The position numbers and the translations under genes are program-made. Shown here in pieces: positions 482 through 33,889 of a stretch of 34,948 bases of DNA. Location of the stretch: positions 1 through 34,948 of IMG/VR virus record IMGVR_UViG_3300022700_000127; one strand, 5' to 3'. How positions within the stretch are numbered: position 1 is the first letter of the stretch; each line of letters starts with the position of its first letter. The notes beneath the pieces were generated by a model that did not search any database, was not told the origin of the DNA, and was given only the letters and a program-made list of their open reading frames with translations. The DNA is from a virus.

Positions 482-490
482 TCGTTATTA
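482..490 (+). promoter_or_regulatory. TCGTTATTA motif, candidate late promoter before the capsid gene
   Basis: TCGTTATTA lies 60 bp upstream of the capsid ATG in the only gap between scaffold and capsid genes. It is one of five intergenic copies of this exact 9-mer. Here it also forms the left arm of a short inverted repeat (TCGTTA/TAACGA). Promoter function is inferred from recurrence and position. Confidence 0.5.
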
Positions 491-541
491 ATTTAACGAA
501 TAAGATACTACAAAAATAATTTAAAATAAAAATATAAAAAT

Positions 542-1471
542 ATGGCTTTTAAATCAGTAACAAGCAGTTATACAGGTGATGCATTAAAGAAATATATTCT
601 ACAAGCATTGATAGGCGGGGAAACGCTTTCAACTAATGGTATTAGTGTATTAACTGGTGTTAAATACAAAAGACACTTGAAGAAACTTACTTCAAGCAAC
701 ATCGTTCAATCTCATTCTTGTGATTTTAATCCAAGCTCTGGTGTAACAATCTCAGAGGGTGTTTTAGAACCTCAAAAGATAAAAATAAATGAAAAGATAT
801 GCTTCGATGAGGTATATGAACTGTGGGATGCTGCTGATATGGCAGATGGAACTAATAGTGAACAGTTTCCACAGGAATTAGCTGATGCTCTTACAGAAGA
901 ATATATCAATCAAGCAGCTAAAGAAGTTGAAGAAGCTGTATGGCAAGGTGATGAAGATGGTTCAACTGGTGGTATTAAAGACCTATTTGATGGTTATGAA
1001 CTTATCTTATCAGAAGGACATACTGCAAATTGTAGTGGTAATACTCTTACTGCAACCGGACTTACAGTTGATAACATTGTAACAGAGCTTAATAAAGTAT
1101 ATGCTGCACTTCCTTCTGCTGTTAAGAAAAAACCTAAAGGTGATTTAGTAATTTTCTTATCACACGAAGCACTCGCATTATATGAAATGAACCTTGCGAC
1201 ACAGGGAATGAATACTTCAGTACAAGGTGGTAATCCAACATTATATGGAATCGAATTGAAGCCTGTAGGTGGATTGTCAAGTGACAATAACATTGTAATG
1301 GGTGAGAGAGCAAACTTCTATATTGGTACTGATTTGGTATCTGATTTCAATGAATTGAAGATGATTGACCAAAGAGACATCACTATGGAAGATGCTGTAA
1401 GATTTGGCATGAAAGCTAAGATTGACGTTTCTATTGCTTACCCTTGTGAAGCAATTTTCTATAAGGAATAA
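542..1471 (+). CDS. Major capsid protein (HK97-fold type)
   Basis: The product is 309 residues and probably builds the icosahedral shell. I assign it from size, its position directly after the protease/scaffold gene, and its composition: an N-terminal arm, an acidic helical stretch around 95-135 (ELADALTEEYINQAAKEVEE) like the HK97 spine helix, then alternating beta-rich segments and a closing beta segment ending CEAIFYKE. There is no long N-terminal delta domain, which fits a scaffold supplied by the preceding gene. The start ATG at 542 follows an A-rich leader without a Shine-Dalgarno site. A strong inverted repeat follows the stop. A different shell protein is conceivable, but no other gene in the window is a better candidate. 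Confidence 0.82.
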   Translation: MAFKSVTSSYTGDALKKYILQALIGGETLSTNGISVLTGVKYKRHLKKLTSSNIVQSHSCDFNPSSGVTISEGVLEPQKIKINEKICFDEVYELWDAADMADGTNSEQFPQELADALTEEYINQAAKEVEEAVWQGDEDGSTGGIKDLFDGYELILSEGHTANCSGNTLTATGLTVDNIVTELNKVYAALPSAVKKKPKGDLVIFLSHEALALYEMNLATQGMNTSVQGGNPTLYGIELKPVGGLSSDNNIVMGERANFYIGTDLVSDFNELKMIDQRDITMEDAVRFGMKAKIDVSIAYPCEAIFYKE

Positions 1472-1525
1472 AAGAATTAATTTGACCTAACTTGAAGTGG
1501 CACTTCAGGTTCAGGTCAAATTCTT
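1472..1525 (+). terminator. Long hairpin after the capsid gene
   Basis: AAGAATT..TTTGACCT pairs with AGGTCAAATTCTT, and inside it ACTTGAAGT pairs with ACTTCAGGT, giving a stem of about 20 bp interrupted by a small bulge. It starts right at the capsid stop codon. There is no U-tract after it (TTCTTAAAAAATAA), so it may stabilise the 3' end of the capsid mRNA or attenuate read-through rather than act as a classical terminator. Confidence 0.6.
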
Positions 1526-1561
1526 AAAAAATAATAATAAAAAAAATAAAATTAATATAAT

Positions 1562-2080
1562 ATGAGTTGTTTACTAACAGCCGGAGTTTCAAAAGAATGT
1601 GCTCACGCATTTGGCGGAATTAAGGAATTAAAAATAGGTAACTTTGATGAGTTGGATACTATTACTTATGATGCTGATGGTGCTATATCAGGCATGACAC
1701 TTGTCTCTGGTGCTACTTTATATGATTTCGAATACGTTAAAGACACAGGACAAGCTCTTGAAGAACTCCAAGAAAATGGTGCAAGTTCATTTGTTAATCA
1801 AACGATTAATGCACAATTCAATAATATAACACATGAAAAGAAAAAAGTACTTGATAGTTTATCTCTTGGAACTTTCTTTGTTATAGTTAAAAAAACAGAC
1901 GATAAGTATTGGCTATTTGGTGAAAAAGCTAAATCAGCAGGTCTTGAAGCAACAGCAGTTACCAATGATACAGGTACTGCACAAGGAGATGTTCAAGCAG
2001 CATCAGTAACACTTGTTGGTGGTTCATTAAACTATGCACCAGTAATTTTAGATGGTGTTGTTGACACTCTTGGAGCATAA
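1562..2080 (+). CDS. Probable major tail tube protein
   Basis: A 172-residue, beta-rich, acidic protein following the major capsid gene. It begins with a short N-terminal segment (CLLTAGVSKEC) and then GGIKELKIGNFDEL. A central part alternates short beta strands (INAQFNNITHEKKKVLDSL, FFVIVKKTDDKYWLFGEK), and the end is SVTLVGGSLNYAPVIL. This pattern (GIKEL..NFD, ADG.I..., VIVKD..GKYW.LG, a C-terminal VTLxGxxxxYAPxxL strand) recurs in a family of structural proteins of Bacteroidota phages and prophages. I take it as the tail tube subunit because no other tube candidate is present. A capsid decoration protein is the main alternative. A strong intrinsic terminator follows at 2132. Confidence 0.6.
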   Translation: MSCLLTAGVSKECAHAFGGIKELKIGNFDELDTITYDADGAISGMTLVSGATLYDFEYVKDTGQALEELQENGASSFVNQTINAQFNNITHEKKKVLDSLSLGTFFVIVKKTDDKYWLFGEKAKSAGLEATAVTNDTGTAQGDVQAASVTLVGGSLNYAPVILDGVVDTLGA

Positions 2081-2131
2081 GATTTTTCTATTTTCTTCTG
2101 ATTTTTCATAATTTAAATTTAAAGTTAGACT

Positions 2132-2170
2132 AAAGGAACATCCTTTTATTAAAGGGTGTTCTTTTTTTTT
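2132..2170 (+). terminator. Intrinsic terminator after capsid/tail tube unit
   Basis: AAAGGAACATCCTTT pairs with AAAGGGTGTTCTTT (14 pairs with one bulged G and one G-T pair), loop TATT-type, running into ten T residues. The TCGTTATTA motif begins two bases beyond the T-run. Confidence 0.9.
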
Positions 2171-2171
2171 G

Positions 2172-2180
2172 TCGTTATTA
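2172..2180 (+). promoter_or_regulatory. TCGTTATTA motif, candidate late promoter before the large adhesin
   Basis: Exact copy of the 9-mer, followed by TAAAAATAG, 27 bp upstream of the ATG at 2199 and immediately after an intrinsic terminator. That arrangement is expected if transcription is restarted here. Confidence 0.6.
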
Positions 2181-2198
2181 TAAAAATAGATATAGAAT

Positions 2199-5100
2199 AT
2201 GGCTGTTACTTTTTATAATCAAATTAGTATAGATGTTGAATATAATTCAAATACTGATACTGTTAGCATAACTGGTAGTGATCAAAGTCTTAAAATTTCA
2301 CCGTATATAGATACCACTTGTGATACATTAGTTGAAAATTTTATGTCTAAGATTATGGTAGGTGCTTTTAATGAAGCACCTGATAGAGTATTTCCTAATT
2401 TAAGTGTTACTTTTTTAACTAAGTATTCTGGTGGTGGTGATTTATTATATAATTTTTCATATAGTTGTTCAGGTAAGTATTATAATGATAATATAAAAGG
2501 TCGTCCTTTTGGTACTAGGATTTATGAGTATGATGATAATGATCCAGAGTCAATATATAAATGGAGATTATACAGTCATACATTTAATCATATTAATTTA
2601 AATGATTATTGTGCAGGTATTTTAAAAAGTGAAGCTGAAGCAAATGTTTCAATATATTCACAGCCACCAAGTGAACCAGCAATACCAACATTTATATTAA
2701 CTGAATTTTGTAAAAATGATGTTTTAACTAATGAAATTGAAATAACATCTCCTGATTGGACTAATGTTGATTATATTGAGATAAAAAAGAAGGATACTAC
2801 TGGTAGTACATATAATGTTGTTAAAACAGTATATGAAGGTGATAGCTTAATATATACAGATCAAACAAATATAGATGGATTTTACAGGGTTTATGCTCAT
2901 AATGATGCTTATGATAAATTTGGTGAAACTAAATTAGCATCATTCTCACCAAATATAGAAGCACAAACTACTAATATAGATACATTAGAATTTACAGCCA
3001 AAACAACTAATTTTTGCTCAAATGTAGAACAAGTTAATTGGTATATTGATGGTAATTTAACTAATACAACTATTGGTAATACATTTACAGGTACACTTCC
3101 AAATAAAACAGATTTCTTTGATATAACAGCTAAATATGTTATTAATAGTGAATTAACATCAAAAAGTAATACAGTTAAAGTTGTTTTTTATCAAGAAACC
3201 CCCAAAGAACAGACATTTACATCAGATGGTTCATTTGAAATAGAAGATGGTTATAATAGAATGGATGTGTTAATTGTTGGTGGCGGTGGTGCTGGTGGTA
3301 CTGCCAGAGGTGATTATGATGATAATGGTTATGGTGGTGGCGGTGGTGCTGGTGGTGTAATTCACAAAAGAATTAATAATCCAACACCCGGACTTTATGA
3401 TGTTATTATTGGTTCTGGTGGTATTGATGGAAGTAGTGGTGCTGAAAATAGTTCTTTTTATAATTTAATTGCCAATGCTGGTCATAATGGTGGTCAAGGT
3501 AATGATTATAATGATACTGCTTCTTATACTACCCCTGTACCAACAAATGATTATGGTTCTGGTGGTGGCGGTGGTGGATTTACTAATATAAGTATTGAAT
3601 ATGGTAAAGGATCGTATGGAACAGAACCATATGGTCATGATGGTGCTAATGGTGCATCTAATCGTGGTGGTGGTGGAGGTGGTGCTGGTTCTGCTGGTTC
3701 TGGAGGATCAGGTGGTTCAAGTAGAACTATCACTATTGGTAATAGCGAATTTACTGTATCTAAAGGTGGCGGAACAAGAACATCACACGGTTATGGTTCT
3801 AATGGTACTAATTATGGTGATGGTGGTGGTGGTGCAGCAAGTATTAATAGTACTTCTTATATTGATGGTGGTAATGGTGCAGATGGTATTGTTCATATAT
3901 TTTTATCTAATCCACCCAAACCAAATAAAGCAACTGGATTAACTACATCAAGTATAACAACAACTGGTGCAACAATAAGTTGGGTAAATAATAATACTGC
4001 TGATGTATCTGGTAATAGTATTAGAATTTTTAGTGGTAATACTTGGATAGAAATAGCTGATTTATCATCTGGAGCAACATCATATAACATTACTGGATTA
4101 ACTCCAATACAAACATATAAAGTTAAAATTGTTGCATATAATACATTACATTATACTCATTCAGATGAAAACACATTTACAACATTAGACCCTAAACCTC
4201 TTAATTTATCAAGTACTGTTTTATTTAATTCTATAACTCTTGATTGGGAAATAAATGACCCACCATTTGGTGATTCAATACGTCCTGAAATTAGAATCTC
4301 TGGTGATACAACTTGGAATCAATTACCGGAAATTGCCAATGATGCTACGACATATACATTTGATAAATTAGAGTATTTTACTACATATGAGCTTAGAATG
4401 GTTAGAATTGGTAGTGAATATGAATCTGAAATTGTTACTTCAACTACAAGTGATTTTCCAGTGCCAATTAACTTAACAGCAAGTGAAATATATTCTACAC
4501 ATGCTAAATTAGAATGGTCTAATCAAAATACTTATGATAGTCTATATCTTTATTGGTATGATAATTATGGTAATGATGGGTATGAAGAAATAGACCCACC
4601 AACTAATGAGTATTATTGGTTATATGAGATACATCCTGATAGAAATCATTGGTTTTATCTTGAAGCTACAATTGATGGTGTTAGTGATTTTTCAGATACT
4701 TATTTATTTACGACTGAACCATTTCCAGTACCTAAAAATCTGACAACAACCAAATTATATCCAACTATTGCTAAATTTGCTTGGAGTAATGAATATACTT
4801 ATGATGATTACGATGAGTTATATTTAAAATGGTCTGATAATATAGGTAACAGTGGTTCTGTTGAAATTGTACCTACATATTATGAATCAGCATGGTTCTA
4901 TGACCTATATGAAAATAGATACTATGAATTTTACCTTGAAGCTACAATTAGTGGATACACTGATGTATCAGAATCTACATATGTTAGTCCACCGAGACTT
5001 GTAGAGTTTTGTGATGGCACTAATTATTCCAAAACTGATGCTTCTTGTGGAGATAATGATGCTGAAATAACTATAAATTCAGATTTTAATAATTTATATA

Positions 5101-6938
5101 ATTTTACTCTTTATAATACAACAGGTGGTACATATTCAACAATCGAAATAAACCCTGATTTTATTAAAATAACCGGATTAACATCAGGTTGGTATAAAAT
5201 AGTAGCAACTCCAACAATAAAAGGGTTAAATAATTACAATTTAAGTGAATGTGAGGTTAACTGGATACCGATTGAGACATCGAATAGTTCAGTATCACTG
5301 TATAATTTTAAAGAAAAACCCATTCAATGTGGTCCGTTTGATGTGCAGAGGGGTAGATTATCTTGGTCTATTTCAGGGGCATCATCAATATATTCTTTTT
5401 ATATTTATAGAGAAGAAAAACCAACTGAAATTGAATACTCAAATGTTGGATTTAGTGGTGATAATGCTATTTATTCTAACATAATTAAAGGTGGATGTTT
5501 CTATGGTGAAATAGTATCTGAAGATGATGGTTGTATTTATTTAATAGATAAGGTTTGTATTAAATCAATTCCTGTCTCATCAATAGGTGGTATTAGAAAT
5601 TTATTTATAACACCTTGGTCATTTGACATTGACTATGATTACTGGAAAACATCTGATGAGGATTATTTCTTAGAAGTTGAAGATACCTCTAAATTTATAT
5701 CATCTAAAATAAATAAATATAAGACATTATCTGGTAATGCCATTCAATGGTACAAAATACCAGTTCTTGGAACAATGTCACTCAATCAATCCTTCAATAA
5801 GACAAGACAGGGCATAACATTCCAAGATACTTTGAATGTCGATGTACCATTTACAGCAATAGATAGGTTTGATGAGTTTACTGACCTGCTTGAAAATAAA
5901 TATGTATTTATTATTGAGGATAATATGGGTCAATGGTGGACTGGTGGTTATCAAGTTGGTGCTTCAATAGAGAGTTATTCTAAGCAAACTGGTCAAAGAG
6001 ATGGTCAGAATATGTACTCATTTGAAATAAAGACAAAATCAGCAGATAAATTGCTTACAGCACTTGATAAACAATATATTAATGATTATATATTTAGTGA
6101 ACCTGAAGCACCTTATAATTTAACAGTAGATGATAAAACTACAAGTTCAGTAACTATTAGTTGGGATTTTCTTGCACTTAATGAATCATATACTACTCAA
6201 ATTTATAGTGGTAGTACTTGGAATGATGTTGCTCAAATACAATCAACTTCATATACATATGAAAATCTAAATTCAGACACATCTTATGATTTTAGAGTTA
6301 TTAATAATTATCTTGATAGTCAATACATAAGTGAGAGTATTACAACCTCAACTCCAAAAGCATTGAATGATGGTATATATTCTTATTTTAAATTAGATGG
6401 TAATGGTTCAGATTATTATGATAATACATTTTTAAGTTTAGGTACAGTTACTTGGATGAGCGGTTTAATAAATGATGGTATGCGTATTAATGATGCTGCT
6501 AATACTAATTTTAGTATTGATAATTTAGTATGGTCATTATCAATATGGATTGAATCATATTCACAAAAAACTGAACCTGAAGATATGTTAGGTATTGATA
6601 CTGATTATGTTTTTAGAAAAACAACTGATGATAAAGTATGGTTATATGTATATGAACAAGGTTTAGAATTAGATTTAGGAGCAATGAACATCAATGAATT
6701 CTATCATTTTGTTATTACTTATGACGGTAGTAATTTAGAAATTTATAAGAATAATAATTATATGGGTAATTATTCAGCAAATATAAATAGTAATAACCGA
6801 TTTTTTATTGGTTATGCTTGGTATGATGATTATTTATTTAGTGGTTTATTTGATGAAATTGGTTATTGGTCAAGAGAACTCAATGAATATGACATAGAAA
6901 AATTATATAATAATGGTAATGGTTTAAGACCATTTTAA
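2199..6938 (+). CDS. Giant multidomain tail adhesin (glycine-rich, FN3 and LamG-like domains)
   Basis: A 1,579-residue virion protein, probably a tail-tip or tail-fibre adhesin. Order of parts: an N-terminal region with Cys-containing beta domains (1-335); a glycine-rich domain (about 338-569) with many GGGG/GAGG runs opening TFTSDGSFEIEDG; four fibronectin-III-like repeats (about 571-935, each ending in a Y.F.LEATI or TYxVKIVA-type strand); a Cys-bearing SprB-like segment (about 936-1040); a phage structural domain (about 1128-1300) related to the product of the next gene; another FN3-like repeat (about 1300-1385); and a C-terminal LamG/concanavalin-like domain (about 1387-1579, ending RELNEYDIEKLYNNGNG). 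Glycine-rich domains of this kind are receptor-binding tips in other phages. It has its own candidate promoter. Attachment to the tail is inferred. Confidence 0.8.
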   Translation: MAVTFYNQISIDVEYNSNTDTVSITGSDQSLKISPYIDTTCDTLVENFMSKIMVGAFNEAPDRVFPNLSVTFLTKYSGGGDLLYNFSYSCSGKYYNDNIKGRPFGTRIYEYDDNDPESIYKWRLYSHTFNHINLNDYCAGILKSEAEANVSIYSQPPSEPAIPTFILTEFCKNDVLTNEIEITSPDWTNVDYIEIKKKDTTGSTYNVVKTVYEGDSLIYTDQTNIDGFYRVYAHNDAYDKFGETKLASFSPNIEAQTTNIDTLEFTAKTTNFCSNVEQVNWYIDGNLTNTTIGNTFTGTLPNKTDFFDITAKYVINSELTSKSNTVKVVFYQETPKEQTFTSDGSFEIEDGYNRMDVLIVGGGGAGGTARGDYDDNGYGGGGGAGGVIHKRINNPTPGLYDVIIGSGGIDGSSGAENSSFYNLIANAGHNGGQGNDYNDTASYTTPVPTNDYGSGGGGGGFTNISIEYGKGSYGTEPYGHDGANGASNRGGGGGGAGSAGSGGSGGSSRTITIGNSEFTVSKGGGTRTSHGYGSNGTNYGDGGGGAASINSTSYIDGGNGADGIVHIFLSNPPKPNKATGLTTSSITTTGATISWVNNNTADVSGNSIRIFSGNTWIEIADLSSGATSYNITGLTPIQTYKVKIVAYNTLHYTHSDENTFTTLDPKPLNLSSTVLFNSITLDWEINDPPFGDSIRPEIRISGDTTWNQLPEIANDATTYTFDKLEYFTTYELRMVRIGSEYESEIVTSTTSDFPVPINLTASEIYSTHAKLEWSNQNTYDSLYLYWYDNYGNDGYEEIDPPTNEYYWLYEIHPDRNHWFYLEATIDGVSDFSDTYLFTTEPFPVPKNLTTTKLYPTIAKFAWSNEYTYDDYDELYLKWSDNIGNSGSVEIVPTYYESAWFYDLYENRYYEFYLEATISGYTDVSESTYVSPPRLVEFCDGTNYSKTDASCGDNDAEITINSDFNNLYNFTLYNTTGGTYSTIEINPDFIKITGLTSGWYKIVATPTIKGLNNYNLSECEVNWIPIETSNSSVSLYNFKEKPIQCGPFDVQRGRLSWSISGASSIYSFYIYREEKPTEIEYSNVGFSGDNAIYSNIIKGGCFYGEIVSEDDGCIYLIDKVCIKSIPVSSIGGIRNLFITPWSFDIDYDYWKTSDEDYFLEVEDTSKFISSKINKYKTLSGNAIQWYKIPVLGTMSLNQSFNKTRQGITFQDTLNVDVPFTAIDRFDEFTDLLENKYVFIIEDNMGQWWTGGYQVGASIESYSKQTGQRDGQNMYSFEIKTKSADKLLTALDKQYINDYIFSEPEAPYNLTVDDKTTSSVTISWDFLALNESYTTQIYSGSTWNDVAQIQSTSYTYENLNSDTSYDFRVINNYLDSQYISESITTSTPKALNDGIYSYFKLDGNGSDYYDNTFLSLGTVTWMSGLINDGMRINDAANTNFSIDNLVWSLSIWIESYSQKTEPEDMLGIDTDYVFRKTTDDKVWLYVYEQGLELDLGAMNINEFYHFVITYDGSNLEIYKNNNYMGNYSANINSNNRFFIGYAWYDDYLFSGLFDEIGYWSRELNEYDIEKLYNNGNGLRPF

Positions 6939-6954
6939 ATTAAAATAAGTTAAC

Positions 6955-7524
6955 ATGCCATACACAAATATATTAGAACATAAAGGTCACTCAATTGGTG
7001 GTGTAAAAGACTTCAACATAGCAGCAAGAAACAGTGATGGTGGTGTTATTGTGTTTCCACTTGATATAACTATTCAGTCAGGAACTACAAATACTGTTCA
7101 GACCTATGTTGATTTTGATAACAGGACAATAAGATTTAATACAAATACTCTTATTGATTTCAGACATATTCAACCAGATAATGTTGAATATAATGAAGAG
7201 GAAGTTGAGGATAGACGTGGATTGTATTACAGAAAAACACTAACATTTTCAATACCAAAGGTTAACTTAACAACACAGAACCAAATTAATGATTTTTTAT
7301 TTGATTCTGCTGGTGAGTTCAGCACAAATGGTATTATTTTGTTTTTTACAGATAGTAATAATCAAAAATGGCTTGCCAATTATTCTGTTCCTTTTATTTT
7401 AGAAGAATTTGAAGAGGATACTGGTTCAAGAGGTGATCCAAATGGATATACATTTACCTATGTCTGTAGAGATTATTATCGTTCGACAAAATTTAATGAT
7501 AAATATAGTTTCGGTCTTGTTTAA
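6955..7524 (+). CDS. Tail-associated structural protein (related to a domain of the upstream adhesin)
   Basis: 189 residues, no membrane segment. The C-terminal two thirds (LTFSIPKVN..., IILFFTDSNNQKWLANYS, FEEDTGSRGDPNGYTFTYVC) align by eye with about residues 1128-1300 of the preceding protein (LNVDVPF..., YVFIIEDNMGQWWTGGY, YSKQTGQRDGQNMYSFEI). Both have the order hydrophobic strand, D-N-x-x-Q/G-W loop, glycine/tyrosine strand, TG.R.G.N.Y strand. It is 16 bp downstream of that gene and has the TTTTAAATTAAAA element before its ATG, so the two are probably co-transcribed. A role as a baseplate/tail-tip connector is inferred; the exact function is unknown. Confidence 0.6.
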   Translation: MPYTNILEHKGHSIGGVKDFNIAARNSDGGVIVFPLDITIQSGTTNTVQTYVDFDNRTIRFNTNTLIDFRHIQPDNVEYNEEEVEDRRGLYYRKTLTFSIPKVNLTTQNQINDFLFDSAGEFSTNGIILFFTDSNNQKWLANYSVPFILEEFEEDTGSRGDPNGYTFTYVCRDYYRSTKFNDKYSFGLV

Positions 7525-7536
7525 ATTAAAAAATTG

Positions 7537-7545
7537 TCGTTATTA
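7537..7545 (+). promoter_or_regulatory. TCGTTATTA motif, candidate late promoter before the fibre module
   Basis: Exact copy of the 9-mer 13 bp after the preceding stop codon and 65 bp before the ATG at 7602. The 77-bp gap contains no other recognisable site. A 15-codon frame starting at 7548 inside the leader is probably not a gene. Confidence 0.5.
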
Positions 7546-7601
7546 ATATGAAAATGGAAAGAAACTGTAAATATAAATACATAGTATTAACATAAAAAAA
7601 T

Positions 7602-7982
7602 ATGAGCGTAACAACAAGTGATAGATTAGGAGTTAGATTAGATATAACAGCCAGAAAAGGTGCTGATTTCCATCGTAGATTTCACACGCAAACATCAAGT
7701 GGTGATACATATGTTAACTTTGATTTTAATGAATATAATGATGCTACACTGGCAGTTAAAAGAAAGCCAAATTCTCCAATTGTAGAACTTAAATTTACCA
7801 CAGAGGATGGGAGTATCAATTTAGGTTCAGATGGAAGATTTGAGCTTAAATTGGACGCTGAGACAATGGATAAAATTCGTGAAGGTACTTATCATTATGA
7901 TATGTATTTATCAAATAATAATTATTCCAAGAGGGATTTCTTATATGGAATGTTTATAATTGAAGATAAAATAACTAAATAA
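7602..7982 (+). CDS. Small baseplate/fibre-attachment protein
   Basis: A 126-residue all-beta protein. The pattern (GVRLDITARKGADFHRRF, Y.DATLAVKRKPNSPIVELKF, TEDGSINLGSDGRFELKL, GTYHYDMYLSNN, YGMFIIEDKIT) matches small beta-sandwich proteins that often come just before tail-fibre genes in phages; several resemble the N-terminal domain of baseplate upper proteins. It ends 5 bp before the coiled-coil fibre gene, so they are almost certainly one transcript. Joining fibre to baseplate is inferred from context. No catalytic motif is visible. Confidence 0.6.
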   Translation: MSVTTSDRLGVRLDITARKGADFHRRFHTQTSSGDTYVNFDFNEYNDATLAVKRKPNSPIVELKFTTEDGSINLGSDGRFELKLDAETMDKIREGTYHYDMYLSNNNYSKRDFLYGMFIIEDKITK

Positions 7983-7987
7983 TTAAT

Positions 7988-9970
7988 ATGGCAGATTTAA
8001 ATATAATTCCAGAAGAAATAAAAATTTTTGTTAATCCAGACCCTGTTAAATGGATTTATACTGGTGGAACATTAACAAATGCAATTGGGTCTGGAAGTAC
8101 AACTGTTACTACTTCTGGTGATACAATGATTGTATATACTGCACCCGGAGCAACATCTTGGGGTAATATAAATGGTACTTTATCTGATCAAACTGACCTT
8201 CAAAATGCTCTTGATGGTAAGTTGAATGAGGAAACATTTAATACATATACTGGAACTACTGGTAATTATATAACATTATCTGCTTTTGATACTTATACAG
8301 GGGATACAGAGACAGAATTAATAGCTTTACAGGGTGATATAGACACAGTTAGTGGTGATACAGAACAAAATACTACCGATATAATTGCCTTAGAAAGTGA
8401 TATAGATACTATTTCTGGTAATACAGAGCAAAATACCACTGATATAATTGCCTTAGAAAGCGATTTAAATACCATTTCCGGACAAACTGATACAAATACC
8501 TCTGATATATCATCTCTTCAAACAAGTAAGCTAAATACTACTTTATTTGAAACATATACAGGGAATACTCAGACTACTTTAACCAATCTTGAAAATGATA
8601 AATTGGAAATAACCACCTTTAATACATACACTGGTGATACTGAAACAGAATTAAATGCATTAGAAAGTGAATTTGACAATTATGTACCAGCATCTGGTGG
8701 AACATTTACAGGTGATCTGCAAGGTACATCACTCCAATTATCTGGTGATTTAACAGTTAATGGTACAATGAATACAGTGCATGCACAGGAAGTATGGACT
8801 GAGAATGATTTCATTTATATGAGAAGTGGTGCTACCACAGGACTTGGAGTAGGTGAAGTAAGTGGTATTGCAGCATTAAATGTAGATGGTAGTACTACTG
8901 CAGTAATGGGTGTTACAAATGATGGTTTGATTCGTGTTGGATGGTCAGGTGATACACTTCAAGCTGTTGCCACAAGAGAAGATGCACCAACTGATGAGGG
9001 ATTTGCTCAATGGGATACCACTACCGAAAAATTTGTTACAACTGGACTTACACTTAGTCAGTATAAGAGTTTTACTGCAAGTACTTTAACAAATTTAGTT
9101 ATATCATCACCAACTCAAAATGAAGTACTTGCATATAATGGAACAAATTGGGTTAATAAATTAAGTTCGGATTATAAAGAGGTATATAACAATGGTGCTT
9201 CAACAATACCAGCGGGTACACTTATCACAATAACTGATTCAGCATCAGTTGTAATTGTATCAGTAGCTGATAAAGATACCAATGATGTTGTTTCTGGTAT
9301 AGCTGTAGAAGACATTGATCCTGCTACTACTGGAATAATGCAAATTAACGGAAGTATTCAAAAGAGTTTTATTAACACCTTTGGAATGTCAGGTGGTGAT
9401 AAATTATATCTCTCAGATGATGGTGGATATACAAATATAAAACCAACATCTGGTTATATTATTCAAATTGGTATTGTTGGATTGGTAGCATCATCAAGTG
9501 GCAGTATTGTACTTAATCTTCCTGCTACTGAAGTATTAGAGGTTAGTGATTTTGAAACATATACAGGTAATACAGAGACTGAATTAATTGCATTACAGGA
9601 TGATATAGACACTATTAGTGGTGATACAGAGCAAAATACTACTGATATAACATCACTTGAAAATAATAAAGCTGATAAAACAGCAACCATTAATTCAATT
9701 TCAACGTCTCAATCTGTTCAATCTGGATGGTCAAATGAGATAATTGAAGCAATAGGAACGATAACAATAACACTTCCAACTGGACTTAATGATGGATTTC
9801 AATTTACTGTTGTAAATGTTGGCACAGGTACAATTAGTTTTTCTGCAGGTACAGGAGCAACATTAAATTCAAAGGATAATAATACTTCACTTGCATCACA
9901 GTATGGTGCGGTGACAGGATACTATAAATCAAGTTCAGATACTTGGGTAATCATAGGAGATTTATCTTAA
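7988..9970 (+). CDS. Long tail fibre with trimeric coiled-coil shaft
   Basis: 660 residues. The N-terminal 90 residues are probably the attachment part. Residues about 90-220 form a shaft of repeats, TYTGxTETELxAL and DIDTxSGxTEQNTTDIIALES, with Ile/Leu spacing of a trimeric coiled coil; three tandem 21-residue units begin at residue 117. A beta-rich section follows, including FTGDLQGTSLQLSGDLTVNG, a pattern seen just before collagen-like or chaperone domains of long tail fibres. A second short coiled coil lies at about 523-560. The C-terminal domain (about 565-660, ITITLPTGLNDGFQFTVVNVGTGTISF) looks like a small beta-sandwich tip. A neighbour on each side is also adhesin-like. No autoproteolytic chaperone motif was recognised. 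Confidence 0.78.
   Translation: MADLNIIPEEIKIFVNPDPVKWIYTGGTLTNAIGSGSTTVTTSGDTMIVYTAPGATSWGNINGTLSDQTDLQNALDGKLNEETFNTYTGTTGNYITLSAFDTYTGDTETELIALQGDIDTVSGDTEQNTTDIIALESDIDTISGNTEQNTTDIIALESDLNTISGQTDTNTSDISSLQTSKLNTTLFETYTGNTQTTLTNLENDKLEITTFNTYTGDTETELNALESEFDNYVPASGGTFTGDLQGTSLQLSGDLTVNGTMNTVHAQEVWTENDFIYMRSGATTGLGVGEVSGIAALNVDGSTTAVMGVTNDGLIRVGWSGDTLQAVATREDAPTDEGFAQWDTTTEKFVTTGLTLSQYKSFTASTLTNLVISSPTQNEVLAYNGTNWVNKLSSDYKEVYNNGASTIPAGTLITITDSASVVIVSVADKDTNDVVSGIAVEDIDPATTGIMQINGSIQKSFINTFGMSGGDKLYLSDDGGYTNIKPTSGYIIQIGIVGLVASSSGSIVLNLPATEVLEVSDFETYTGNTETELIALQDDIDTISGDTEQNTTDITSLENNKADKTATINSISTSQSVQSGWSNEIIEAIGTITITLPTGLNDGFQFTVVNVGTGTISFSAGTGATLNSKDNNTSLASQYGAVTGYYKSSSDTWVIIGDLS
8336..8524 (+). 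repeat. Three tandem 63-bp units in the fibre shaft
   Basis: Units at 8336-8398, 8399-8461 and 8462-8524 each encode 21 residues (three heptads) of pattern DIDTxSGxTEQNTTDIIALES. Units 1 and 2 are nearly identical, unit 3 has diverged. A further related stretch of about 95 bp (8291-8385) is repeated at 9557-9651 in the same gene. Confidence 0.8.
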
Positions 9971-9971
9971 T

Positions 9972-11696
9972 ATGGGATTTAGTACAGTATTAAAGCACGG
10001 CATAGTTTCACAAGTGGGTGAATTATCGTTTCCAACGAGTGGATTAATTTCTTATTATAGGTTTGATGAAACAAGTGGAACTGTTGCTTATGATTCGCAT
10101 AATGGATATGATTTAACAAAATATAATACAGTAATAACATCTAATGCTATGAATAATAATGCATTAGATTTTAGTGATGATACTTCAATGGTTTATGGTT
10201 CATCAAGTTATTTTAATTTTGAAAGAACTGATTCATTTACATTTTCTTTATGGGTAACTAATTTGGTGAATGATGTACAAAGAAGATTTATAAATAAACA
10301 GATAGGTAATCCATATACAGGTTATAGATTTTTACAAACGGATATAAATTTTTTTCAATATGAATTGAGAGATACTGATGGAAAAAGAATTATTGTTGAT
10401 AGTAGTGATTTATATGATTTAACTGGGTATCATCATTATGTTTTTACATATGATGGTAGTAGTGATGCAAATGGTTTAAAAATTTTTATTGATGGTCAAG
10501 AAATAAATCTTACGATAAATAAAAATGAAGGATTAACTGGTAGTATACAAAATAATGAAAGATTTACAATTGGAAATTGGGATACTTATCAAACTCGTTC
10601 ACAAAGAGGCTATATGGATGAAATAGGTGTTTGGAATCGAGTCTTAACCCAAGAAGAAATAAGTAATTTATATAATGATGGTAATGGATTATTCTACAGA
10701 GTAGATGTTACAGGTATTAGTTTAGATACCAATACTGCTGATATACAAGAAGATGATACATATCAATTAAACTATACAATTACACCAAGTAATGCAACTA
10801 ATAAAGATGTTACTTGGTCAAGCAGTGATGAAACAAAAGCAACAGTTGATAGTAATGGACTTGTAACTGCAGTTGGTAATGTTGATGATACTTTTACAAT
10901 AACAATAACTACAGAAGATGGTGGATATACTGATAGTTGTGATTTTACAATTATTGAAGCAGTATTCGAAGCCACGGGTGGTAATGTATATGATGATAGT
11001 GGTTATCGTTACCATGAATTTACATCAGATGGAACATTTACCGTTGAATCATCTTCATCTGAAATTGAATACTTAATTGTTGCTGGTGGTGGTAATGGTG
11101 GCAGAGCTACTAATGGTAATGGTGGTAATTCATATCGCTATTTAGCTGGTGGTGGTGGTGCTGGTGGTTTAAAACAAGGCACTACTACAGTAGATAGTAA
11201 CACTGGTAATTATTCAATTAATGTTGGAAGTAATGAACAAAATTCATCAGCATTTGGTGTAACATCCAATGCAGGTGGTAGAGGTGGTGATGCTGGTTAT
11301 TCTACTAGTGATTCTGAAGATGGTCATAATGGAGGTTCTGGTGGTGGTGGAGCTGGATCAAGTGTAATTAATTCTGTTGGTTACGGTGGTTCTGGAATTT
11401 CCGGACAAGGATATGATGGTGCAAAAGGTAGTAATGGTAATGATTATTCTGGTGGTGGTGGTGGTAAAAATTCTGCTGCTTCTGAAGAAAGTGGAGGTAA
11501 TGGTAAATCAGTATGGGGTTCAACATATTCAAAAGGTGGTAATGGAAGATTAGATTATAATAATGGTTCTGGTTCTAGTGCTGCTGCTAATACTGGTAAT
11601 GGTGGACAAGGTGGTGCTGTTAATTCCAATGATTGGGTAACATACAATGGTGGTAACGGTGGCTCTGGAATAGTAATAATAAGATACCCTATATAA
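9972..11696 (+). CDS. Tail adhesin: LamG-like, Big2-like and glycine-rich domains
   Basis: 574 residues, one base after the previous stop codon, so translation is probably coupled. Residues about 20-242 are LamG/concanavalin-like (GLISYYRFDETSGTVAYDS, HHYVFTYDGSSDANGLKIF, GYMDEIGVWNRVLTQEEIS). Residues about 245-325 are a bacterial Ig-like group 2 domain (VTGISLDTNTADI, NKDVTWSSSDETKATVD, NGLVTAVG). Residues about 340-574 are glycine-rich and begin FTSDGTFTVESSSS, closely matching the start of the glycine-rich part of the protein at 2199, and end with a hydrophobic strand SGIVIIRYPI. The domains suggest carbohydrate and cell-surface binding at the fibre tip. The same building blocks as the giant adhesin appear in a different order. 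Confidence 0.78.
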   Translation: MGFSTVLKHGIVSQVGELSFPTSGLISYYRFDETSGTVAYDSHNGYDLTKYNTVITSNAMNNNALDFSDDTSMVYGSSSYFNFERTDSFTFSLWVTNLVNDVQRRFINKQIGNPYTGYRFLQTDINFFQYELRDTDGKRIIVDSSDLYDLTGYHHYVFTYDGSSDANGLKIFIDGQEINLTINKNEGLTGSIQNNERFTIGNWDTYQTRSQRGYMDEIGVWNRVLTQEEISNLYNDGNGLFYRVDVTGISLDTNTADIQEDDTYQLNYTITPSNATNKDVTWSSSDETKATVDSNGLVTAVGNVDDTFTITITTEDGGYTDSCDFTIIEAVFEATGGNVYDDSGYRYHEFTSDGTFTVESSSSEIEYLIVAGGGNGGRATNGNGGNSYRYLAGGGGAGGLKQGTTTVDSNTGNYSINVGSNEQNSSAFGVTSNAGGRGGDAGYSTSDSEDGHNGGSGGGGAGSSVINSVGYGGSGISGQGYDGAKGSNGNDYSGGGGGKNSAASEESGGNGKSVWGSTYSKGGNGRLDYNNGSGSSAAANTGNGGQGGAVNSNDWVTYNGGNGGSGIVIIRYPI

Positions 11697-11727
11697 TCAA
11701 TTATAATTTTTAATTAAAAAAACTAAA

Positions 11728-12018
11728 ATGTGCCATATGACACAACAGCAACAAGATAAATTAAATGTATTTCTAAAATACTTCAATTCAGTACTTATGA
11801 CATTTATAACATTGCTTCTAATTTATGGAGCAGCTACCGTAAATGATTTGTCAAAAAAGATTGATTCTATGAACGTTAAATTAGAAAAAGAAATAATTCA
11901 AAGACAGTCAAATACTTTAATTTTAAAAGATCACGAGAAAAGAATAAGAAATATAGAGGGTACAATTGTTGATACCAAAAGTTGGGTAGACAAATACTTT
12001 CAAAGAAAGGATAATTAA
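11728..12018 (+). CDS. Small membrane protein with coiled coil (lysis-associated, XhlA/spanin-like)
   Basis: 96 residues. A transmembrane helix spans about 20-40 (SVLMTFITLLLIYGAATV), followed by a long charged coiled coil (LSKKIDSMNVKLEKEI, HEKRIRNIEGTI). This one-helix plus coiled-coil layout is found in holin accessory and spanin-like proteins. Its stop codon abuts the next gene, a two-helix holin candidate, which supports a lysis role. The start may be 11728 or the in-frame ATG at 11737 three codons later. There is no lipobox and no enzymatic motif. The lysis assignment is inference. Confidence 0.55.
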   Translation: MCHMTQQQQDKLNVFLKYFNSVLMTFITLLLIYGAATVNDLSKKIDSMNVKLEKEIIQRQSNTLILKDHEKRIRNIEGTIVDTKSWVDKYFQRKDN

Positions 12019-12246: not shown

Positions 12247-12271
12247 TTTTTTATAATAAATAACAATAATA

Positions 12272-13540: not shown

Positions 13541-13552
13541 TAAAAGCGAGAT

Positions 13553-14077: not shown

Positions 14078-14080
14078 AGT

Positions 14081-14110
14081 AAAGAGAGTGTACTATCATA
14101 CACTCCCTTT
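14081..14110 (+). terminator. Hairpin ending the late transcript
   Basis: AAAGAGAGTGTA pairs with TACACTCCCTTT (11 of 12 pairs) around a CTATCA loop, starting four bases after the adaptor stop codon. The T-tract is short (CCCTTTG), so termination may be partial. Confidence 0.65.
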
Positions 14111-14497: not shown

Positions 14498-14539
14498 AGT
14501 ACCAACATCGATCGACTTGTTTAATTTTAGCTTAACTCA

Positions 14540-25024: not shown

Positions 25025-25113
25025 TTTGGAAATTAAAATTATTATTTATATATTTGAATTGAATTCTGTTATAAGTTCTTTTAAAAGTTTTTTCATTAGT
25101 TTAATTTAATTAT

Positions 25114-25151
25114 AAAAAGGCAGTGGGTAATTTTCCCCTGCCTTTTTTTTT
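25114..25151 (+). terminator. Intrinsic terminator after the tail chaperone
   Basis: AAAAAGGCAGTGGG pairs with CCCCTGCCTTTTT (one bulged base), running into nine T residues. It ends the transcript from the sigma/terminase region; a TCGTTATTA motif follows 12 bp later. The gap from 25025 to 25187 has no gene besides this. Confidence 0.9.
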
Positions 25152-25162
25152 GTTAATTTCTG

Positions 25163-25171
25163 TCGTTATTA
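25163..25171 (+). promoter_or_regulatory. TCGTTATTA motif, candidate late promoter for the tail genes
   Basis: Exact 9-mer followed by TAAAAAGGT, 25 bp before the ATG at 25188 and 12 bp after an intrinsic terminator. With the copy at 2172 it is the clearest case of terminator plus motif. Confidence 0.6.
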
Positions 25172-29020: not shown

Positions 29021-31015
29021 ATGAGCATTAAGACAAATATAAAAATACAAACTGAAGATGGTAGAAATTTAGATTATACTACTCCTGAAGAGTTAGATAT
29101 AACTCTAAATAGAAAAGCTGATGATAATAATCAACCTGATTCAAGATTTGGTGAATTCTCATATAGTTTTTCTCTACCTAAGACAAGGAATAATAACAAA
29201 ATTTTTAATTATGCCAACACGTTTAATTCACAAAGGAAATTCAAAGTTAATCCCATCAACGTCAATGTATTTAATAACGACACGTTGGTATTATCAGGTT
29301 TGTTGGAACTCGAATCAATCAAAAGAGACAGTTATGATTGCAGGTTTTATTCTAAATTGACAGAACTAGTAGATGCTCTTGAAGATGTTAATCTAAGAGA
29401 CATTGATACAATGCCAATGATTGATGATTTTCAGTATGAACAGACCATAAGAGACCATATAAATGCGGAATATAAAGACAGTGATGAGACATCATATCAA
29501 TTTCCACTTATATTTTATAACACATTCTTCACTCCATATGGTGTTTATGATAATATGACAGACCTTGAAGGGTATGATTTTCCTGATTCTGGTGACAGAC
29601 CACAACAAAATTTCTACTATATTTTAAATAGAACACCTACACTTGATGACAATGAGTTTTATTTTCATCAATTTCCAGTGTGTTTTTATTTAAAATCAGT
29701 TTTAGAAGGTCTATTAGAGTATGCAGGATGGTCATTGTCCGGTTCATTTTGGGATACACCAGAGGCTAAGAAAATAATTATGACATATGCTGGTGAAAAT
29801 GATGTATATGATTCATCTACCCTGTGGAAAAATACTTCAACTGGTGAGTATATTGCTCCAACTGGTGATACATTAACACCACCATCTGGATATGTTGTGG
29901 CAATTAATACCAATGAATTTTTACCTGACATGGAAGCATTGGATTTTTTAAAGTCAATTATCAATATGTTTAATATGTATTTTTTTATTGACATTAATAA
30001 TCGAATTATTTCAATGGAAAATTATGATACTGTATTTGGACACAATGTAGCACCATATGATTTAAATAATAAAATTGATTATGATACCATATCTATATCC
30101 ACAGTTGAAAGTGATAATTTCTCAATAGTGTTTGAAGAGCCAGAAAATAAAAATCATTTAGGTGATAATTATTTCTTTGGTAAAAATGATAATAATGCTC
30201 TTAATTTAGAAAACTATAAGAAAACATCAAATGCTTTTTATGATGGTGTTTATAATAATAAGGTAGACAGTGACAATGAAATTGAAATAAAATTTGCAGC
30301 ACCTAAGATAAAGCGAATGCATATAAGAAATGTTGAGAATTATGATGCAAGTATATTGAACCGGGGTTACAAAACATTGTTCATACCTGATATGTCAGAG
30401 CAAACAAGATATGACAATGGAAATAATTCATTTAATGGTGGAACAGGTGAGACAGTGGTTTATAATGAAGAAGATACTATTAAATTCAAAGGTAAACCAA
30501 TGCTAATGTATTATTATGGCATATCAAATTCTGATTTTGAGCAAACATCTGGTGATGGTAATTCTGGTGATTATTTTTATCTTAATATGGATGGTGTAAA
30601 ACAGAAAATAGGTATAGCCTCACCATTTGCATATAAAGCATATAGAGACGTTATAAACACTCAATTAGAAAAAGGGTCATCTGGTAGCACTGCTTCAATG
30701 TACGGCTCTTATTTGCAAACTATTTATCTTATGATGGGTAGTAGTTATTCCAATCCACCACGATATAGTTTAACATTTGGAGAAAGTTATTCAATGGTAG
30801 ATACTCTATTTACAAGATTTTATCAAAATAGAATTAACAGGTATAAAAATTCAGAGGTGATTGAAGGTACAATTAGAATAAATGATACTGATTGGAAAGA
30901 GATGACATTAAATCAACCGTTATTATATAATGGTGAAATATATTCACTCATGTCAATAGACAATTATAGTATAGTAACAGGTAGTGCAAACATAAAAATG
31001 ATAAAACATCTATAA
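29021..31015 (+). CDS. Distal tail/baseplate hub-like protein
   Basis: 664 residues. The N-terminus (ELDITLNRKADDNNQPDSRFGEFSYSFSLPKTRNNNKIF) is the recurring start of a tail protein family in Bacteroidota phages that sits beside the tape measure. It has F.ysfslPkT.nN followed by a beta domain with VFNNDTLVLSGLLELESI. Residues about 215-245 (QFPVCFYLKSVLEGLLEYAGW) and 305-330 (LPDMEALDFLKSIINMFNMYFF) resemble the helix-strand pattern of phage hub proteins. The remaining half is beta-rich with a Gly/Asp-rich insert. It ends 5 bp before the tape measure gene. Dit/Tal-like function is inferred. Confidence 0.65.
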   Translation: MSIKTNIKIQTEDGRNLDYTTPEELDITLNRKADDNNQPDSRFGEFSYSFSLPKTRNNNKIFNYANTFNSQRKFKVNPINVNVFNNDTLVLSGLLELESIKRDSYDCRFYSKLTELVDALEDVNLRDIDTMPMIDDFQYEQTIRDHINAEYKDSDETSYQFPLIFYNTFFTPYGVYDNMTDLEGYDFPDSGDRPQQNFYYILNRTPTLDDNEFYFHQFPVCFYLKSVLEGLLEYAGWSLSGSFWDTPEAKKIIMTYAGENDVYDSSTLWKNTSTGEYIAPTGDTLTPPSGYVVAINTNEFLPDMEALDFLKSIINMFNMYFFIDINNRIISMENYDTVFGHNVAPYDLNNKIDYDTISISTVESDNFSIVFEEPENKNHLGDNYFFGKNDNNALNLENYKKTSNAFYDGVYNNKVDSDNEIEIKFAAPKIKRMHIRNVENYDASILNRGYKTLFIPDMSEQTRYDNGNNSFNGGTGETVVYNEEDTIKFKGKPMLMYYYGISNSDFEQTSGDGNSGDYFYLNMDGVKQKIGIASPFAYKAYRDVINTQLEKGSSGSTASMYGSYLQTIYLMMGSSYSNPPRYSLTFGESYSMVDTLFTRFYQNRINRYKNSEVIEGTIRINDTDWKEMTLNQPLLYNGEIYSLMSIDNYSIVTGSANIKMIKHL

Positions 31016-31020
31016 TACAT

Positions 31021-33858
31021 ATGGCTAAAAGAAATGTAGCATTTGATTTAGACTTTAATGTCCAAGGTCAAAAAAGTATTGGTCAATTGGAAAATACTAT
31101 TGAGCAGATTAATGAAGAGATTAAAAATGTTGATACTAATTCAGATGCGTTTAAACAATTATCTTCTCAAGCACAACAGGCTAATTCTAAATTAAAAACC
31201 ATAGATCAATCTATGGAAGGTGTAACTTCCACAGAAAAAGCGGAAGGAGTTGTTAGACTTGGAGAAGGATTAGCAGGTGCTTTCGAAGCTGCAGCAGGAG
31301 CATCTTTGCTGTTTGGTGAACAAACATCAGAAGAACTTGAAAAGGTAATTCAACAAGTAGGTGGATTAGTAGCTGCTATGGATGGTATTCGTAGAGTAAC
31401 AGAAGCTCTAAGTGCTGAAAATTTAAGATTTGTAAAGGCAGCAGTAGCTGGTTTTAAAAGGTCGGCTGTTGCAGCTAAATTCTTTGGTAATGCTACTCGT
31501 GCTGCAGTTACAGCGACAGGACTTGGTATTATAATAACACTCATTGGATTGATCATTGCCAATTGGGATAAATTAACCTCATTTGTCAAAGACAATATGG
31601 AGAGCATTAAAAAATATATAATGTTTGCTTTACCACCGTTGTATGTAATAATTGAAGTAGTTGAAGCAATTCAAGAGAAGTTTGGTTCACTTGGTAATTT
31701 AGTTAAAGGTGTTGGTGCTGCTATTAAGCAAGCATTTACATTTGATGGTAGTGGGTTAGAAGGTATTAATAATGCATTTGATGAAACAATTGAAAAGCAA
31801 AAGGAAATTAATAGACTTGAAGAGGAAAGAAATGAACTTGCTCAAGAAAGAGAGCAATTAGAGAATAATGGTCTTAGGATTATTAAAGCTCAAGAAGATA
31901 CTGAGAAAGAAGTTCTTAATGTTAGAGAGCAAATGCTTATTGATCAAAAAGAGAATCTTCAACAATTGAAATTACAGAGGGATTTAACTGAGGATGAGAA
32001 AGAAGAACTTAGAGATGTTAAAGTAGAACTTGAAATAATTAGAATAAAGAGAAATCAAATAAATGAAGAGGAAGAGGAAGCTGCTGAAAAACGTAGAAAG
32101 GAAAGAAGAGAAGAAAGACAAGCACAAAGAGAAGCAGCACAAAAAAGAAGGGAAGAATTATTAAATGAGATTGAACTTCTTCAGAAGCAAAATGAAATAG
32201 AGAGTGATAGTTTAGAATTTCGTAGAAGATTATTAGAAATTGAAAGAGCAAAAACTGAACTGGCAAAGGAAGACATTCAATTACAATTCGATTATCTAAA
32301 AACATCTGAGAACATTGATGATGTTATGCGTGATGTTATTGACAATAGTGATGTTATTAACAATATAAATGAGAAGAGAAACGAAATTGAAAATGATTAT
32401 TTGCTCTCACAAAAAGAAAAAGATAGATTACTCGATGAGCTTGAAGCAAAAGAAACTAATTATCTTAACGAAGTAATGGGTAAACTTCAAGATATAGGGG
32501 GGGAACTTAATGAAGAAGAAAGACAAAGATTGGTAAATCTTCAACGTCAAAGAGAAGAATTAAAACTTGAAGAAGAAAGGCTTGAACTTACTAAAAATAA
32601 TAATCAAGATAGAATTGATGGATTAAGAGATGAGCAAGAAGAAATTCAGAAAAGAATTGATGCTCAAGATGATTCTCTGGAAGGTCAAAAAAGAGCAGCA
32701 GAATTAACTGAGGAAAAACAAAAATTAGAAGGTGATATAATTAATCTTCAAAAAGATAATGCTCAAATTGAAAGAGATAATGCTGAAATTCAAAAAGATA
32801 AAAATGATTTAAGAGAGGATGAAAAAGAAATTATTGCTGAAATAATAGCTGAACAGAAAAAATCAGGTGATCAGGCAGAAGATAATAGGGATTCTACAGT
32901 TAAATTTATTGAAGATGTGTTGGAATTTGCTAAAGTTGGTGCAGATGCTATTGGTAATATAGGTGAATTAAGTGCTGCTTTAAATCAAAGGCAAATTCAA
33001 CAAATAGAAGATCAAATTATTGATGCAAGAACAGAACTTGAAGAATTTTATGATTATCAGGAAGAGAGAGAAGCTGAACTGCAAGAGCAAAAAGAAGAGA
33101 ATAAAAAGAAAGAGGAAGAACTTGTTGAGTTACTTAGAGATGCTGAAGGTGAGAGATATGACCAAATTAAAGAGCAATTAGCTGGTGTAAGAGAAGCTGA
33201 ACAATCAAGAGCAGACCAGCAAGCAGTATTAGACCAGCAACAAGCAGAAAGAGAACATAAATTAGCACTCTTGGAATGGAAAAGAGAAAAGAAATCATTG
33301 GAAGCTGAAAAAGAAATGGCTGCATATAGAAAAGCACAGGCAGCTATTGATGCAACCATTCAAACAACTCTTGCTGTTATTCAAGCATTGCCAAACATTC
33401 CACTTTCAATTGCTATTGGTGTGATGGGAGCTGCTGGTGTAGCTTCAATTTTAGCACAACCACTTCCATCTACTAAAATGCCACCTAAACCTGAATCACC
33501 AGAAGCAATTGATGCTGGTGGTGATGGTAGAAGAAGATATGCAGAGGGTGGTTATCTTGATGGTAAATCACACAGTCAGGGTGGTATTCCTATTGAAGCA
33601 GAAGGTGGTGAATATATTGTAAATAGGGATTCTACTTCAAAGTATTATCCAATTCTTGAGGCAATAAATGCAATGAAGTTTCAACAAGGTGGTATGGTAT
33701 CGCAAACAACACCTCAAATTGAGCAAACTGAAGGTGACATTATAAATTATGACAGACTTGCTCAGGCAATGGCAAATCAACCTATTATGGCATCTTGGAC
33801 TGAAGGTGAAAATGTAGGTAGAAGACTTAAATTTACTGAAAATAGAAGTAGCATATAA
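31021..33858 (+). CDS. Tail tape measure protein
   Basis: 945 residues. It sets tail length and probably assists DNA passage. An N-terminal helical part contains a hydrophobic hairpin (about 160-216, ATGLGIIITLIGLIIANW and FALPPLYVIIEVVEAI). Long Lys/Glu/Gln coiled coils cover about 250-760 (RLEEERNELAQEREQLEN, QKRIDAQDDSLEGQKRAAEL). A second hydrophobic segment lies at about 785-818. The C-terminus (AEGGYLDGKSHSQGGIPIEA, EGGEYIVNRDS) is a hallmark of tape measures in this host group. At about 1.5 angstroms per residue, a rule known for tape measures, the tail would be near 140 nm. No muralytic domain is visible. Absence of a tail-sheath gene favours a siphovirus. Confidence 0.88.
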   Translation: MAKRNVAFDLDFNVQGQKSIGQLENTIEQINEEIKNVDTNSDAFKQLSSQAQQANSKLKTIDQSMEGVTSTEKAEGVVRLGEGLAGAFEAAAGASLLFGEQTSEELEKVIQQVGGLVAAMDGIRRVTEALSAENLRFVKAAVAGFKRSAVAAKFFGNATRAAVTATGLGIIITLIGLIIANWDKLTSFVKDNMESIKKYIMFALPPLYVIIEVVEAIQEKFGSLGNLVKGVGAAIKQAFTFDGSGLEGINNAFDETIEKQKEINRLEEERNELAQEREQLENNGLRIIKAQEDTEKEVLNVREQMLIDQKENLQQLKLQRDLTEDEKEELRDVKVELEIIRIKRNQINEEEEEAAEKRRKERREERQAQREAAQKRREELLNEIELLQKQNEIESDSLEFRRRLLEIERAKTELAKEDIQLQFDYLKTSENIDDVMRDVIDNSDVINNINEKRNEIENDYLLSQKEKDRLLDELEAKETNYLNEVMGKLQDIGGELNEEERQRLVNLQRQREELKLEEERLELTKNNNQDRIDGLRDEQEEIQKRIDAQDDSLEGQKRAAELTEEKQKLEGDIINLQKDNAQIERDNAEIQKDKNDLREDEKEIIAEIIAEQKKSGDQAEDNRDSTVKFIEDVLEFAKVGADAIGNIGELSAALNQRQIQQIEDQIIDARTELEEFYDYQEEREAELQEQKEENKKKEEELVELLRDAEGERYDQIKEQLAGVREAEQSRADQQAVLDQQQAEREHKLALLEWKREKKSLEAEKEMAAYRKAQAAIDATIQTTLAVIQALPNIPLSIAIGVMGAAGVASILAQPLPSTKMPPKPESPEAIDAGGDGRRRYAEGGYLDGKSHSQGGIPIEAEGGEYIVNRDSTSKYYPILEAINAMKFQQGGMVSQTTPQIEQTEGDIINYDRLAQAMANQPIMASWTEGENVGRRLKFTENRSSI

Positions 33859-33880
33859 AAAGCACTTAATCAAAAAATAA

Positions 33881-33889
33881 TCGTTATTA
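33881..33889 (+). promoter_or_regulatory. TCGTTATTA motif, candidate late promoter for head genes
   Basis: Exact 9-mer in the 55-bp gap between tape measure and protease genes, 33 bp before the ATG at 33914, followed by an A-rich stretch. Confidence 0.5.

Follow-up and report, generated by a model that had tools for sequence, protein, structure and literature searches.

Phage sigma factors with promoters of their own are already known, for example, from phiEco32 and 7-11 (PMC4331800, in the part available here). On the host side, the available part of PMC6847099 gave TAnnTTTG as the housekeeping box and leaders longer than 10 nt for 87% of predicted transcripts of Flavobacterium johnsoniae, while that of PMC9723704 described, for Flavobacterium psychrophilum, the mapped extracytoplasmic function (ECF)-type motif SM6 with a CGT −10 box and leaderless mRNAs accounting for 5.5% of mapped mRNAs. 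The DNA analyzed here (the window) was the whole 34,948-nt virus record IMGVR_UViG_3300022700_000127, and the element in question was the 9-mer TCGTTATTA, which recurred ahead of its virion genes. Judged from sequence, TCGTTATTA is very probably the −10 element (core CGTT) of an ECF-type late promoter of the phage's own, read by a phage sigma factor; a virus-encoded factor is the most likely reader, since a switch of this type is retained at comparable places in distant relatives. The feature that appears to be conserved in relatives is an ECF-type −10 element (CGTT or close variants, then A/T) together with a clade-specific −35 element, and not the 9-mer itself.

TCGTTATTA had six exact copies on the two strands of the window, while dinucleotide shuffles gave a mean of 0.27 and none of 100 reached six. 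Five of the six were sense, intergenic, and 25 to 65 nt ahead of an ATG (plus-strand starts at 482, 2172, 7537, 25163, and 33881; 60, 27, 65, 25, and 33 nt from motif start to ATG, respectively), and the sixth, which probably arose by chance, lay antisense inside gene 29021–31015 (29272–29280, minus strand). The sequence-only reading, in which the motif had first been noticed, had listed the five gaps, the antisense copy, and a near-match TCGTTATTT at 18368, and all these coordinates were verified; its count against shuffled genomes, proposed as a check, was the one just given, and its statement that the motif is not the TAnnTTTG box held as well, none of the five copies being such a host primary (sigma A) box. 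In the gene list used, 7.2% of the window was non-coding and 18 gaps were sense; TCGTTATTA was the sole 9-mer with at least two G/C to reach five copies in these 18 gaps, and the maximum count of any such 9-mer was four in 2000 first-order Markov resamplings of them. Among gaps of at least 50 nt, the motif was present in five of the six within the virion block and none of the seven elsewhere (Fisher P 0.005); the sixth virion-block gap, 1472–1561, lacked it and had a long inverted repeat instead, as seen by eye.

The nearest isolates found were the Nonlabens phages P12024L and P12024S (Inhavirus; P12024S known from search matches only), with a capsid protein 26% identical to that of the window. 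P12024L and the window shared orthologous protease, capsid, portal, and other genes, and TCGTTATTA occurred once in the P12024L genome, 13 nt before gp01, which is orthologous to the window protease gene (35% identity over 167 aa). P12024L differed from the window in having its sites 12 nt before the ATG with an AAAAC −35: CGTTAATA began 12 nt before the ATG of five further genes. A sigma-70 region 2 protein, gp35, was encoded upstream of its terminase gene, and no promoter was annotated in its record. Further relatives were collected with the P12024L capsid protein as query (7 loci) and with a capsid alignment (33 loci, some of them among those found before, plus one contig of a Lutibacter bin); at least 588 capsid-protein relatives were among the 600 candidate stretches listed in one scan, and the capsid proteins of the relatives compared were only about 21–34% identical to that of the window. 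No relatives were returned by single-protein scans of viral_contigs with the window terminase, capsid, and two sigma-like proteins (19465 and 18228, named by gene start; see below), and no match was obtained among phages, whether window positions 1–20000 were searched as nucleotides or 19465 and 18228 by tblastn. The longer word TCGTTATTATAAAAA was found in at least 120 stretches of viral_contigs, and among the matches listed 110 of 120 lay inside open reading frames (ORFs) and 10 outside; being mostly within ORFs, it is not a general phage signal. Per-genome word discovery in the relatives gave mostly AT-rich words, and an ATG-aligned test was far more sensitive.

The ATG-aligned test was applied to two sets of upstream sequences: (i) set 1, with 181 deduplicated upstreams from 34 relatives, excluding the window and P12024L (L144 and L125 were dropped as duplicates of P12024L and L140, L124, again P12024L, was unused, and nine loci were swapped for fuller contigs) and (ii) set 2, with 77 of 80 loci added later that are closer to the window (L131 already belonged to set 1, and L234 and L242 were short). 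Joint deduplication reduced 384 upstreams to 377, and thus about seven set 2 upstreams resembled set 1. In set 1, 29 of the 181 upstreams had GTT at −11 (mean count per offset, 3.45), and AAC was at −32 or −31 in 20 of these 29 GTT sites. The GTT count in set 2 served as an independent test and gave 18 of 203 upstreams at −11 against a mean of 2.50; GCA and ACA stood where set 1 had AAC, and this set, which holds the window clade, had GCAAA at −32 seven times (mean 0.40) and [CAT]G[AT]TAT at −12 21 times (0.72). In the pooled upstreams, for which patterns were chosen after viewing both sets, the −10 pattern was present at −12 in 46/377 (31 records), with a mean of 2.73 at other offsets, and AAC, ACA, or GCA started between −33 and −31 in 34 of these 46 sites compared to 51 of the 331 other upstreams. 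The CGT core of the −10 element read CGTT in all five window copies and CGTT, AGTT, TGTT, or CGAT in relatives.

The strict −12 site was also counted by gene in set 1 plus P12024L and the window, with gene labels that were partly transitive and in part doubtful and with near-duplicate loci included: it preceded gp05 in 15/21 rows, gp01 in 12/31, gp40 in 4/6, gp08 in 2/3, gp46 in 2/3, gp06 in 1/2, gp42 in 1/6, and gp45 in 1/1, while the internal genes gp02, gp03, and gp50 had it in 0/10, 0/27, and 0/16, respectively, and unlabelled genes in 3/103. Since sites stood at unit-heading genes and at none of the internal ones, a unit-head promoter is favored over a translation signal. The sequence-only reading had held that the 9-mer marks five structural transcription units and may be a phage-specific late promoter, and had suggested looking for it before orthologous genes of related phages. 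Its late-promoter part is borne out insofar as the element looks phage-specific and recurs in similar form ahead of the same genes in sigma-bearing relatives, with promoter-like sites at the same place in both sets; the exact 9-mer, found once in P12024L, is not what is conserved. In an ECF promoter, a −35 element lies about 16–17 nt upstream of the −10 element, which is followed within a few nt by the transcription start. Late mRNAs of the relatives look leaderless, because their ATG falls close to the start position expected of an ECF promoter, and the window differs in having predicted leaders of 12–52 nt.

The ECF sigma model TIGR02937 was searched in 16 plus 15 chosen records, and it matched in 13 of the 14 longer than 20 kb (window included) and in none of the 17 shorter ones. 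Among the relatives, six matches came from the first search (one over the cut-off) and six from the second (none over); in Pfam, Sigma70_r2 was over the cut-off in two of six of these proteins and Sigma70_r4 in one of six, and the relatives' proteins had sigma-70 regions 2 and 4 within a small protein. The 12 sigma proteins of the relatives formed one family, each scoring at least 155 bits on a profile built from those same 12. In P12024L, G010, and G006, only a short distance separated the sigma gene from the terminase gene downstream of it; in the window, 19465 likewise preceded the terminase gene, at a greater distance.

The window was the only one of the 13 sigma-bearing records with two TIGR02937 matches, both below the cut-off: (i) 19465 (19465–20013, plus strand, 182 aa), with E 3.3e-5 over model positions 6–163 of 165 and (ii) 18228 (18228–18950, plus strand, 240 aa), a second sigma-like protein with a region-2-like part only, with E 8e-5 over positions 4–128 of 165. 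When the profile of the relatives' sigma proteins was run on 38 window ORFs, 19465 ranked first with 9.7 bits, a score equal to the background of unrelated proteins elsewhere, and 18228 scored −8.9 bits. Neither protein had a sigma match in Pfam or PHROGs; hhalign with the relatives' sigma alignment A2 gave a probability of 3% against 19465 and 4.5% against 18228, and a sequence search of solved structures gave no match to 19465, while the matches to 18228 were confined to alpha-parvin (E 0.49 or worse). Single-sequence structure models of the two were poor (pLDDT 57.6 for 18228 and 42.2 for 19465) and were not relied on: in a fold search with the low-confidence 19465 model, ECF sigma L headed the list at E 0.19, which was not used as support, and the best match for the 18228 model, at E 0.88, was not useful. 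The sequence-only reading had named either or both proteins as directing polymerase to the motif; 19465 is the favored reader here, a choice with roughly an even chance of being right.

Early genes, including the pair 19069–19465 that encodes the sigma-like protein, would be transcribed from host-type TAnnTTTG promoters. Sense-strand boxes of this kind were found in three gaps: (i) TATCTTTG at 19043–19050 (plus strand), a candidate −7 box with TTG 20 nt upstream, preceding genes 19069 and 19465, (ii) TACCTTTG at 16962–16969 (plus strand), before gene 16993 and with the divergent box TATGTTTG at 16933 on the minus strand, and (iii) TATATTTG at 25049, with TTG 20 nt upstream, located ahead of a hairpin and of the 25163 motif copy in the same gap. 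A scan with the sigma-70-type consensus was set aside as not suited to this host. The phage sigma factor would then steer the polymerase of the host to the TCGTTATTA promoters, of which there are five, one at the head of each block of virion genes and two with a terminator-like hairpin in front. The predicted transcription starts lie some 12 nt past the C of CGTT, at 495, 2185, 7550, 25176, and 33894, and all five of these positions were purines; promoter activity, timing, and the identity of the reader are likewise deduced.

The contig ends were identical over 99 bp (1–99 and 34850–34948), and the contig probably represents either a closed circle or a circularly permuted genome; given this overlap, the map was treated as circular, so that the gene after 33881 ran round to 462 (465 aa). 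The five motif-headed units spanned genes 25188 round to 14077, with the terminase gene (22682) outside, and all five copies were on the plus strand. GCA, a −35-like element at the clade spacing, was found at two of them: (i) 33881–33889, before the XkdF-like prohead protease gene (33914, round to 462), with GCA at 33862–33864, 17 nt upstream of CGTT, predicted start A33894, and a 20-nt leader and (ii) 482–490, before the likely major capsid protein gene (542), with GCA at 463–465, again 17 nt upstream of CGTT, predicted start A495, and a 47-nt leader. The other three were (iii) 2172–2180, before a gene for a tail or fibre-like protein of 1579 aa (2199; labelled by eye only), with AGG at the −35 position, predicted start A2185, and a 14-nt leader, (iv) 7537–7545, before gene 7602 (126 aa), which headed a block to 14077 ending with a portal gene and a head-completion-like gene, with TGT at the −35 position, predicted start G7550, and a 52-nt leader, and (v) 25163–25171, before gene 25188, which headed a block to 33858, with TTT at the −35 position, predicted start A25176, and a 12-nt leader. 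By position, the 25163 copy corresponded to the site that precedes gp42 in P12024L, and the second gene of its block matched P12024L gp43.

Directly before the 2172 promoter lay an intrinsic-terminator-like hairpin with T tail (2132–2165, plus strand; the fold of 2125–2172 was −18.8 kcal/mol), in a terminator scan that gave four such sites in this region compared to 3.7 in shuffles, i.e., the shuffled level. A second hairpin with T tail lay ahead of the 25163 promoter (25114–25147, plus strand; judged by fold only, that of 25112–25160 being −18.3 kcal/mol) and was missed by the terminator scanner, probably owing to a bulge. Four further features were recorded beside these units and the early region. 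A 15-codon open frame, MKMERNCKYKYIVLT (7548–7595), started 10 nt past the C of CGTT in the 7537 copy and stopped shortly before 7602; it is possibly a near-leaderless leader peptide. By eye, a hairpin-like inverted repeat (1472–1525) separated the likely capsid gene from the one that follows it, and in many relatives the gap of about 50 nt ahead of the gp03 orthologue contained a G/C hairpin with T behind it; such a hairpin could damp transcription past the capsid gene. In the leftward early cluster, 15356–16009 (minus strand) encoded an antirepressor-like protein with KilA-N and T5orf172/MUG113 domains. The protein encoded at 16993–18048 matched HTH_36 weakly and had a long Ser/Thr/Asn/Gln-rich repeat from near-repeated DNA.

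Several results weigh against reading TCGTTATTA as a late promoter of the phage's own. Copies with at most one mismatch were at background (18 found, shuffle mean 13.76, 14 of 100 shuffles reaching 18), and one of them, TAGTTATTA at 16872, sat in a gap of the early region. Because the host-type box at 25049 shares its gap with the 25163 copy, the unit headed by that copy might be transcribed early too, which blurs a clean early/late split. The copies at 2172, 7537, and 25163 had no relative-like −35, and both window sigma-like proteins matched weakly. In the relatives, the AAC peak of set 1 was not repeated in set 2, where the top AAC offset among the 18 GTT sites was −30 (4/18), a blind trinucleotide list of set 2 put GTT at −11 only fourth, the strict −12 pattern was missing before many orthologues (e.g., 19 of 31 gp01 rows), and G003 and some others had different letters at the −12 place.

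The same promoters might instead be read by 18228, with only its region-2 part, in which case the window promoters would hardly need a −35, in the manner of T4 gp55, whose late promoters are −10-only. The confinement of its TIGR02937 match to positions 4–128, the three of five copies without a relative-like −35, and the presence of two matches in the window alone among the 13 records would all suit such a reader; it is nevertheless unlikely, given that 18228 scored −8.9 bits on the relatives' sigma profile, that two copies retain GCA at the −35 place, and that its model was poor, its fold match not useful, and no relative of it came from the viral_contigs scan. Reading by a host ECF sigma factor is improbable: flavobacteria do have several of these and a mapped CGT −10 motif (in the portion of PMC9723704 available), but a phage sigma gene was present in 13 of the 14 records longer than 20 kb, and the promoter letters varied between phage clades. 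It is about equally improbable that the motif acts as a translation signal on the mRNA or as the binding site of an activator or repressor made by the phage: its closeness to the ATG, and the inverted repeat TTCGTTA...TAACGAA seen by eye around the 482 copy, speak for this, but the distance from the C of CGTT to the ATG varied from 24 to 64 nt in the window, the inverted repeat was at just one of the five copies, relatives had a second element 16–18 nt upstream, and the internal genes lacked the motif (see above). Chance recurrence of an AT-rich word, to which the background level of one-mismatch copies and the antisense exact copy within a gene might point, is next to impossible, with 0/100 shuffles and 0/2000 gap resamplings equaling the observed counts and the offset spike repeated in the second set.

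With TCGTTATTA read as the −10 element of a phage ECF-type late promoter, a wider picture may tentatively be drawn, one that is somewhat more doubtful than probable: a large, mostly uncultured Bacteroidota phage family would have adopted an ECF sigma factor to switch on its late genes, its virion mRNAs would be leaderless, with the promoter directly on the start codon and letters drifting by clade, and the window phage would have shifted to leadered promoters largely without a −35. If true, leaderless late mRNAs would be unusual in hosts with mostly leadered mapped mRNAs (PMC6847099 and PMC9723704, each in its available part). There would also be a late-promoter grammar for a common Bacteroidota phage group, by which late genes could be called from sequence alone, and a natural series of sigma/promoter pairs that may diverge together.

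The T4-type late promoter box is TATAAATA, and a T4-type late promoter was rejected for the window, the repeated element there being TCGTTATTA. A possible likeness to the T4 late promoters with gp55 lies in a −10-only promoter for virion genes; the T4 system differs in its letters, and two of the five window copies and most sites of the relatives have a −35-like element. SM6 concerns host genes and host sigma factors, with leaderless mRNAs at only 5.5% in that host (by the same part of PMC9723704), while the present element stands before phage virion genes and the late genes of the relatives look leaderless. The phages phiEco32 and 7-11 are alike in that early genes were assigned to host promoters and later ones to phage-sigma promoters, also by inference from sequence, and they differ in being enterobacterial phages, the PMC4331800 text containing neither 'ECF' nor 'leaderless'. 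In the open-licence PMC literature, as judged by titles and abstract openings, no account of such promoters in these phages was found. Against these systems, what appears to be new is an ECF-type, apparently leaderless class of late promoters across a broad Bacteroidota phage family, together with its leadered variant in the window.

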